From Archangium violaceum (GTDB lineage: Bacteria > Myxococcota > Myxococcia > Myxococcales > Myxococcaceae), in the NCBI RefSeq assembly GCF_016859125.1, contig NZ_CP069338.1:3374501-3438500 (forward strand): a DNA stretch of 64,000 nucleotides. The letters run 5' to 3'. How positions within the stretch are numbered: the stretch's first letter is position 1; the number at the start of each line of letters is the position of its first letter. Positions 17,801 through 20,800 of this stretch are shown here, one piece after another. Position numbers and translations under genes: made by a program. The notes under the pieces are model-generated. The model saw only the letters and a program-made list of their open reading frames with translations, was not told the origin of the DNA and did not search any database.

Positions 17801-20800
17801 GCGCGGCCAGTGCCTCCCGCAGCGTGCGCGCCTCGTCCTGTCCCCGCCGCAGCGAGGCGATGGCCTGCCCCTGAACCCCGCGCTCCTCCAGACACCGCAG
17901 CACGTTGTGCGAGAGCACCGCGTGCGGACCCACCTCCAGGAAGACGGTGTGGCCGTCATCGAGCGCGCCATTCACGGCGTCGGCGAAGAGGACGGGCTCG
18001 CGGATGTTCCTCGCCCAGTACGCGGCGCCGAGCTCCTCGCCCGCCACGCGCGTGCCGGTGACGGTGCTGTAGAGCGCCACCGTCGCGGGCCCGGGCCGCA
18101 GTCCGTCGAGCGCCCGCGCCAGCTCGTCCTGGAGCGGATTCATCTGCGGGCTGTGGAAGGCGTAGTCCACGCGCAGCCACCGGTGCGCCACGCCCTGGCG
18201 CTCCAGCCGCGCCACCGCCTCCTCCATGGCCTCCGGGTCTCCCGAGAGCACGCACGAGGACGGGGCGTTGATGGCCGCGAGGGCCAGGCGCCGCTCCCGT
18301 CCCGCGAGGAAGGGGGCCAGCGCCGGGGCGGGTAGCTCGACGGCCACCATCCTCCCCTGGCCGGTGGCCCGCTGCATGAGGCGGGCGCGGTGGTGGACGA
18401 CGCGCAGCGCCTCCTCCAGGCCCAGGGCCCCGGAGACGTGGGCGGCGGCCACCTCACCGATGCTGTGGCCCAGGACGGCGTCGGGCACCACGCCCCAGGA
18501 CTTCCACAGCTCCACCAGCGCCACCTGGAGGGCGAAGAGCGCGGGCTGGGTGACTTCCGTCTGTTGCAGACGCGAGCGCTCCTCGTCGGCGGCCAGCTCC
18601 TCCAGCAGGGACCAGCCCGACAGGGGCCGCAGCAGGGCATCGCAGGCCTCGAGGACGCGGCGGAACACCGGCTCCGTGGCGAGCAACCGCCGCCCCATGC
18701 CCACCCACTGCGAGCCCTGGCCGGAGAACACGAACACCACCCTGCGGCGCCCGCCCACCACGGGAGGCCCCACGTGCACGGAGGAGGGACGCTCACCGCG
18801 CAGGAAGGCCTCGAGCGCCGCGCCCACCTCCCGGCGCGAGCGGCCCACCACCGCCAGCCGGTGCTCGTGGTGGGCGCGGTGCGCGCCCGCGGAGAAGGCC
18901 ACGTCCCGCGGCTCGGTGGCCCCGGCCAGCCGCTCCTGGTACGCGCGGGCCAGCGCGGTGAGCGCCTCTCCGCCGCGCGCGGACAGCGGCAGCACGCACG
19001 GGGTGGGCTCGTCCGGCTCGGCCTCGGGGGCCGCGTCTCCACAGAGCGACACCACCAGGGGCCACGAGTCCTCTTGCACCTCCGGGGGCAGCACGGCGCT
19101 CCAGCGCACCGGGTGGCCCAGCGTGTACAGGGCCCCGAGCGTGTCGCGCGTCACCACCTGTCCGTCCTCGCCCCGGCGCAGCGAGGGGAGCACGCGGGCC
19201 TCCCGTCCGGCGCGCGCGAGCGTGGCGCCGATGGCGTGCTTGAGCGTGGAGTGGGGCCCCAGCTCGAGGAAACACGAGGCCGTCTCCTGCCCGGCGAGTG
19301 CCTCCAGGGCCTGGGAGAAGCGGACGGGGCGGGTGAAGTGCTCGGCCCAGTAGTCGGCGTCCAGCGGCGTCCCGTCCAGCCGCGTGCCGGTGACGGCGCT
19401 GTAGAGCGGCAGCTGCGCGCGGCCCGAGCGCACGTCCCGGAGCGCCTCGCGCAGCTCCTCCCGCATGGGCTCGAGCCGGGGGGTGTGGGCCGGCACGTTG
19501 GTGCTCACCTTCCAGCAGGAGACGCCGCGGCCGAGCAGGGACTCCACCACCCCGTCGAGCGCCTCGGGCTCGCCGGAGAGCACCGTCGCCTCGGGAGAGG
19601 CATGGATGGCGCGGTATACGCGCTCCTCGTTTCCAACGAGCGCCTCGCCCGCCCGCTCCCACGAGAGCGACACCAGCGCCATGGCGCCCTGGCCCCGGGT
19701 GCGGTGGATGAGACGCGCCTGCGCGCAGATGACGCGCATGGCGTCCTCCAGGCCCAGACACCCGGCCACGTACGCGGCGGCCACCTCGCCGATGCTGTAG
19801 CCGAGCACGGCGTCCGGTTGGATGCCCCAGGAGCGCCACAGCTCCGCCAGGGCCAGCTCCAGCGCCACCGTGGCGGGCCAGCCGAAGAGCGCCTCGTGCA
19901 GCCGCGAGCGCGAGCCCCGCGCCGCCAACTCCTCCAGCAGGGACCAGCCCAGGTGCTGGCGGATGAGCCCGTCACAGCGCTCGAGCACCGCGCGGAACAC
20001 CGGCTCGTCGCGCAGCAGGCTCCAGCCCATGCCCGGCCACTGGCCGCCCTGTCCGGAGAAGACGAAGACGAGCGGGGCGCGCGTCGTGGCCTCGCCCACC
20101 GACAGCCCCGCCCGCGGCTCTCCGGCCACGAAGGCGGACAGGTGCCGCTCCAGCTCCTGGCGCGAGCGCACCGTCACCGCCAGCCGGTGCGCGCCCGCCC
20201 CCAGCCTCCGCGCCGTGTGGCACAGGGTCGCCAGTGGCGCCTGGCCCTCGGCGGAGCCCAGGGTGCCCAGCAGACGCCGCGCCTTCTCCCGCAGCGTCCC
20301 GGCGCTCCCCGCGGCCAGCGGGAACAGCTCCGCCTCCCGCGCGCGCCACTGCTGGAGCACCAGGTGGCAGTTCGTCCCGCCGAAGCCGAAGGAGCTGATG
20401 CCGGCCGTGGCGGGCTCCTCCTCGCCCTGGGGCCAGGGCTCCAGGGCGCGCTGCAGCCTCAGCCCCAGCTCCTCGAAGGGGATGTGGGGGTTGGGCTTCT
20501 GCACGTGGAGACTGGCGGGGAGCGCCCCATGCCGCATGCACAGGGCCACCTTGATGAGGCCGGCGATGCCCGCGGCCGCCTCCAGGTGGCCGATGTTGCT
20601 CTTCACGGAGCCGAGCCGCAGGGGACGCTCCGGGGGCCTGCCCTGGCCCAGCACGGCGCCCAGGGCGCGCGCCTCGATGGGGTCCCCCAGGAAGGTGCCC
20701 GTACCGTGCGCCTCCACGTAGTGCGCCCGCGAGGGGGCGAGGCCCGCCTGCGCCCAGGCCCGGCGCAGCACGTCCTCCTGCGCGCGGGGGTTGGGCGCGG

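Follow-up and report, generated by a model that had tools for sequence, protein, structure and literature searches.

What does the first of two tandem acyltransferase (AT) domains at the head of this Archangium violaceum polyketide synthase (PKS) load? The window, by which we mean the whole stretch of 64,000 nucleotides analysed, sits in a 12.68 Mb single-contig genome and contains a cluster of four PKS genes on the - strand, the last of which (PKS4) ends in a thioesterase (TE). The two ATs belong to the first protein, PKS1. Our analysis indicates that, in this cis-AT type I PKS, the first of them (AT1) is very likely the domain that loads the starter, taking a monocarboxylic acyl-CoA that is most likely branched and short-chain. 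The features concerned are as follows.

14811-21929, - strand: PKS1, 2372 residues, ACP-KS-AT-AT-DH-KR-ACP, loading and first extension module (translation, Pfam)
21684-21887, - strand: ACP0, N-terminal, limits approximate, with GLDSA at residue 42 (Pfam PP-binding and motif)
20331-21623, - strand: KS1, with active Cys (TACSS), not KSQ (Pfam, motif)
19140-20069, - strand: AT1, putative starter-loading acyltransferase (Pfam match, 251.8 bits; clade; model pLDDT 90)
19788-19802, - strand: GYSIG of AT1, residues 710-714, nucleophile Ser712 (read from the translation)
19719-19721, - strand: Gln737 of AT1, codon CAG, at the position of the extender-binding Arg, Ser+25 (translation, fixed-offset reading, MAFFT column)
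19482-19493, - strand: PAHT of AT1 with the active-site His, from residue 813 (read from the translation)
17781-18737, - strand: AT2, with GHSIG, Arg kept and YAFHSP (Pfam, motif reading)
16773-17657, - strand: DH1, with HxxxGxxxxP and HPALLDxxxQ (Pfam, motif)
15504-16037, - strand: KR1, NADP and YAAAN motifs intact (Pfam, motif)
14997-15191, - strand: ACP1 (Pfam, motif)
9262-14814, - strand: PKS2, KS-AT-DH-KR-ACP, AT with Arg and VASHSP, KR motifs lost (Pfam, motifs)
3563-9235, - strand: PKS3, KS-AT-DH-KR-ACP, AT with Arg and VASHSP (Pfam, motifs)
1-3566, - strand: N-terminal part of PKS4, KS-AT-DH-KR-ACP-TE, which continues past the window to G000:C1:3371806 (L035:306-6566; Pfam)

The domain order of PKS1 is that of a dual-AT loading module. 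Two stretches match the Pfam PP-binding family and one of these carrier domains, ACP0, precedes KS-AT-AT. KS1 has the motifs EAHGTGT and KSNIGH besides TACSS and is predicted from them to be capable of condensation; a KSQ decarboxylative loading module was ruled out, as KS1 keeps Cys where KSQ has Gln. The ATG of PKS2 (14814-14812) overlaps the PKS1 stop codon, this start having been picked by comparison with the relative in genome G078 that is described below. The ATs of PKS2, PKS3 and PKS4 all read GHSMG and VASHSP. According to a partial text of PMC10646177, the loading modules of ajudazol, aurafuron, chondramide and gulmirecin likewise have two ATs and an N-terminal ACP.

The surroundings of the cluster were read with Pfam, which detected no tailoring enzyme and no gene for starter supply or an unusual CoA ester in seven neighbouring frames. 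Two overlapping frames lie upstream of PKS1 (22052-22933 and 22411-23256), the first of which has a C-terminal tRNA_bind domain and is possibly a short tRNA-binding protein adjoining another gene. Two further frames with similar N-termini (..NERLELTD..) and no Pfam match are found one on each side of the PKS cluster, at 25319-25951 of the window and at L003:15349-15975.

In extender-loading ATs, the Arg at Ser+25 binds the free carboxylate of the extender, and its loss is generally taken to mark ATs that load monocarboxylic acids. The original prediction had read this residue of AT1 as Gln737, and this is confirmed in the 2372-residue translation, CTG on the + strand at 19719-19721 being CAG on the - strand. 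At Ser+25, AT2 and the AT of each of the other three PKS proteins have Arg, and the GYSIG and PAHT motifs are also present as first described. The gap-free alignment over 25 residues from the active Ser that had been claimed holds too: at a fixed offset, AT1, AT2 and the ATs of probable SorA, probable MtaB and Myxococcus xanthus stay in register, and the MAFFT column at Gln737 contains identical residues. The comparison with the soraphen SorA AT1a and myxothiazol MtaB loading ATs that had been proposed as a check shows that the probable SorA and MtaB domains likewise lack Arg. We rejected a sequencing error at Gln737, since GYSIG and Gln (together with PAHS) recur in the G078 relative, at 69% identity, and the frame is open. 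The word arginine does not occur in PMC6164871 or PMC2661021, and its single occurrence in each of PMC10423236 and PMC4237116 is in a reference on a linker, with nothing on the AT Arg.

We extended the reading of the Gln737 column to a MAFFT alignment of 186 distinct AT domains (169 after collapse at 95% identity), which came from the window and the fetched loci and were gathered by similarity to AT1, making them neither a random sample nor a census. First-of-tandem ATs have Gln in 13 cases, Tyr in nine, Glu in two and Arg in four (n = 28), giving 24 of 28 without Arg, or 23 of 26 once L078 and L123 are removed, whose AT-AT pairs lack a KS in the stretch that was read. Second-of-tandem ATs have Arg in 27 of 28 cases and Gln in the other. 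Arg is present in all 100 single ATs that follow a KS and in all seven domains that are at locus edges or otherwise unclassified, and Gln is present in all six stand-alone ATs. PKS1, with Arg missing from AT1 and kept in AT2, therefore has the majority pattern. The first ATs that keep Arg are those of L086 (Streptomyces), L107 (Nocardia), and L099 and L123 (both Sorangium cellulosum So ce26). Thus, tandem position does not force loss of the Arg. Set against the single ATs, all of which have Arg, the residue found at Ser+25 of AT1 is more than chance. One first tandem AT, in L093:1921-7290 (Streptomyces olivoverticillatus), reads GACFG, with Cys in place of the nucleophile Ser, and has Tyr at the Arg position.

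The survey also bears on whether AT1 works at all. Its length filter of 250 residues left out truncated first ATs in L065, L125 and L126; in two of these, L125 (at 11.44 Mb of the window's own genome) and L065 (Archangium violaceum Cb vi76), the active site is GHGVG, so that the nucleophile Ser is missing, and the domains are decayed loading ATs. By analogy, AT1 could itself be a decaying, inactive domain, with either AT2 or a self-acylating KS1 starting the chain. However, AT1 is full length, keeps both Ser and His and gives a confident AT model, and the relative at 69% identity has the same Ser, His and Gln, making an inactive AT1 extremely improbable.

The structure predicted for AT1 by AlphaFold2 (mean pLDDT 90) superposes on the avermectin loading AT (4rl1), which we compared by fold and not at Ser+25, with an rmsd of 1.6 over 314 aligned residues (Z 44.5, 33% identity). 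The model agrees with AT structures along almost all of its length, and extender ATs match it as well as 4rl1 does. Because of this, the modelled fold, although it shows an intact AT, says nothing about the substrate and does not separate loading from extender ATs.

Phylogeny is more informative. In a careful tree of 119 rows, built with every second single AT, AT1 and its G078 counterpart form a pair (support 100/100) on a long joint branch (0.41); the bootstrap correlation was 0.982, short of full convergence. The pair falls in a clade of 25 rows (100/100), none of which has Arg and whose members are putative starter ATs. They comprise L118 (probable SorA AT1a), L119 and L041 of So ce26, L039 of So0157-2, a group with Tyr (L021, L022 and L122), six stand-alone ATs, and a ten-row myxalamid-type subclade that is nearest to the window pair with moderate support (87/87). 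The myxalamid-type label comes from one member, M. xanthus AM003 (L040), which row L013 represents in the tree; the last component of the AM003 cluster is a condensation-adenylation-carrier-reductase NRPS, presumably as expected for myxalamid. The clade does not include the probable MtaB AT, which sits on a long branch. All of the SorA, MtaB and MxaF assignments come from gene size and order and not from annotation; for L118, we relied on frames of 6406 and 8818 residues, sizes expected for soraphen, together with tandem ATs. A quick tree, in which some rows sit on long branches, needs three changes, gains or losses, to account for the non-Arg state.

The stand-alone ATs (L124:8734-9870, L019, L025, L029, L033 and L047) have frames of 366-392 residues and Gln at the Arg position, and they group together within the starter-AT clade. 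Two genomes were checked, those of L124 and L047; in both, Ser/Thr kinase genes adjoin the AT, and none of the neighbouring frames tested gave a PKS domain.

AT homologues without the Arg can also hydrolyse acyl groups, so that AT1 might have an editing role, removing stalled acyl groups by hydrolysis as the AT-like acyl hydrolases of trans-AT PKSs do. The PDB sequence matches include PksD (8avz), which we take to be an acyl hydrolase. However, the system is cis-AT, with its own AT in each of the four modules, which rules out the trans-AT acyl hydrolase class; AT1 groups with probable starter ATs; and an AT1 that was solely hydrolytic would leave no domain to load the starter. An editing role is thus very improbable. 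The original prediction that loss of the Arg signifies monocarboxylic loading is borne out for AT1 by its place in an ACP-KS-AT-AT module and in an all-non-Arg clade with probable starter ATs. Monocarboxylic starter loading by AT1 is, on these sequence grounds, a predicted activity that is well supported but short of proof.

Individual loading modules can be compared with that of PKS1. The myxalamid MxaF-type proteins (M. xanthus AM003 and relatives) have the same ACP-KS-AT-AT-DH-KR-ACP order as PKS1, and their first ATs, which are 50-58% identical to AT1, likewise lack Arg (Glu or Gln, compared with Gln in AT1). Their AT2 reads VASHSP, whereas that of the window reads YAFHSP, and the M. xanthus assembly line is longer and ends in an NRPS with a reductase, whereas the window cluster ends in a TE. 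The probable SorA AT1a of So ce26 resembles AT1 in being the first of a tandem, in lacking Arg and in belonging to the 25-row clade, but has Tyr and GHSTG where AT1 has Gln and GYSIG. The probable MtaB loading AT (G078, L121) is again the first of a tandem without Arg and shares GYSxG with AT1, but has Tyr and YAHI in place of Gln and PAHT, and lies outside the clade.

The original prediction also regarded the combination of GYSIG with the missing Arg as unusual and as a possible sign of an unfamiliar acid. This part is not supported, as GYSxG without Arg is also found in the probable MtaB, which has Tyr and for which isovaleryl-CoA is the published starter, and in L011 of the myxalamid-type group, which has Gln. 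Four of the 28 first ATs have GYS rather than GHS (window, G078, L011 with GYSSG and L121 with GYSVG), and two unclassified cyanobacterial AT domains (L083 and L084) combine GYS with Arg. The motif around the active-site His varies within the 25-row clade (PAHT, PAHS, AVHS, PVHS, AAHS, APHS and APHC).

AT1 could nevertheless load an acid new to myxobacterial polyketides, with GYSIG and PAHT forming a special pocket. Among the 28 first tandem ATs, GYSIG together with PAHT or PAHS is confined to the window and the relative closest to it, and neither cluster has a product known to us. However, the group nearest to this pair in the tree is myxalamid-type, and Pfam shows no gene for an unusual CoA ester in the seven neighbouring frames. 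The positive support for this reading comes down to the separate branch of the window pair, and we consider it unlikely. In its fullest form, the two-member branch (GYSIG, Gln and PAHT or PAHS) would have a pocket reshaped for a starter beyond isovaleryl, isobutyryl, 2-methylbutyryl, propionyl, acetyl and benzoyl, and the cluster would make an undescribed keto-polyene acid, which is a similarly doubtful proposition.

The reading that we prefer is that AT1 loads an ordinary starter, for which a branched short-chain acyl-CoA is our best guess by analogy, because the nearest group is myxalamid-like and isovaleryl-CoA is given for myxothiazol and aurafuron. Benzoyl is possible as well: the probable SorA AT1a, presumably a benzoyl loader, shares the clade, and clade membership therefore does not fix the starter. 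According to passages of PMC9636800, isobutyryl-CoA is the suggested starter for myxalamid B, and isovaleryl-CoA is the starter of the Stigmatella products myxothiazol and aurafuron. Because myxothiazol is made with isovaleryl-CoA, the GYS letter goes with an ordinary starter. Partial texts of PMC6616573, PMC5559782, PMC2008767 and PMC4768178 added nothing decisive on AT1.

From the residues, domain order, clade, model and motifs observed, we infer the following loading activity, starter and order of transfer. Ser712 of AT1 would accept the acyl group of a monocarboxylic acyl-CoA, for which isobutyryl-, 2-methylbutyryl- and isovaleryl-CoA are the likeliest candidates, with Gln737 replacing the Arg that would hold the carboxylate of an extender, and AT1 would hand the acyl group to ACP0. 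KS1 would take the starter from ACP0 through its active Cys and carry out the condensation. ACP1 would receive its malonyl-type extender from AT2, and the first condensation product would be processed by KR1 and DH1. PKS2, PKS3 and PKS4 would then add three methylmalonyl-type units, as the VASHSP motif rule suggests, and the PKS4 TE would release an acid.

A close counterpart of the whole cluster exists elsewhere. Among 145 genomes of the order, the window genome included, AT1 matches above 65% identity are found in a single genome besides its own, G078 (69%), with the next match at 58%; a search of plasmids, covering 701 of 701 records, gave no match at or above 60%. The G078 cluster (probable Stigmatella aurantiaca DW4/3-1, C1:4771-4796 kb) agrees with that of the window in its four PKS genes and their order. 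Its AT1 has GYSIG and Gln as in the window, with PAHS in place of PAHT, its AT2 reads YAFHSP, and the KR motifs of its PKS2 are also lost. The aligned gene stretches are 74-79% identical in DNA, and the flanking genes seen differ. G078 has a further gene set with a tandem-AT PKS, which also comprises an NRPS and an NRPS-PKS that each have a nitroreductase-family domain, two methyltransferase PKSs, and an NRPS that combines a luciferase-like monooxygenase with a TE, and which we take to be as expected for myxothiazol.

The AT-coding DNA of PKS2, PKS3 and PKS4 is 96.3-99.1% identical among the three genes, far above the 75.6-77.8% identity of the whole genes to their G078 counterparts, and the repeated modules therefore seem, on this sequence comparison, to be homogenised within a genome. 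Within G078, PKS2 and PKS3 are 94.7% identical across their first 2.6 kb.

The motifs of the extension modules allow a prediction of the product. Neither the KR of PKS2 (9898-10431) nor that of the PKS2 homologue in G078 (L037) retains GGLGGLG or the YAAAN stretch around the catalytic Tyr. Because this KR has neither cofactor motif nor catalytic Tyr, module 2 probably leaves a ketone, its DH notwithstanding. The YAFHSP of AT2 is presumably malonyl-type and the VASHSP of the PKS2-4 ATs presumably methylmalonyl-type, by the usual motif rules; from these assignments and the lost KR, the predicted chain would be starter-CH=CH-CO-CH(CH3)-CH=C(CH3)-CH=C(CH3)-COOH.

We found no named product for the window cluster, and three candidates were rejected. 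The myxalamid assembly line has a three-module PKS and a terminal C-A-PCP-reductase NRPS, whereas the window has four PKS genes, the last with a TE. The dawenol PKS of DW4/3-1 is described as PUFA-like in part of PMC8767328, and sections of PMC12211065, PMC10435759 and PMC12224551 place dawenol clusters in Stigmatella and other myxobacteria; the window PKS is instead modular, with tandem ATs, KS-AT-DH-KR-ACP modules and a TE, in contrast to the PUFA-synthase-like dawenol enzyme. The imidacin scheme of Stigmatella, as given in part of PMC11301661, has an adenylation domain and a urocanate starter, and the four window PKS proteins contain no AMP-binding domain. The cluster is small enough to express.

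AT1 is thus of an already known type and joins the myxobacterial dual-AT loading modules. The survey yields a rule of thumb that will not surprise specialists: Gln, Glu or Tyr at Ser+25 of a first tandem AT usually marks a starter domain (24 of 28, though the sampling was biased), and Arg in the second tandem AT marks an extender domain. This rule aids the reading of myxobacterial assembly lines and the choice of loading ATs for engineering.
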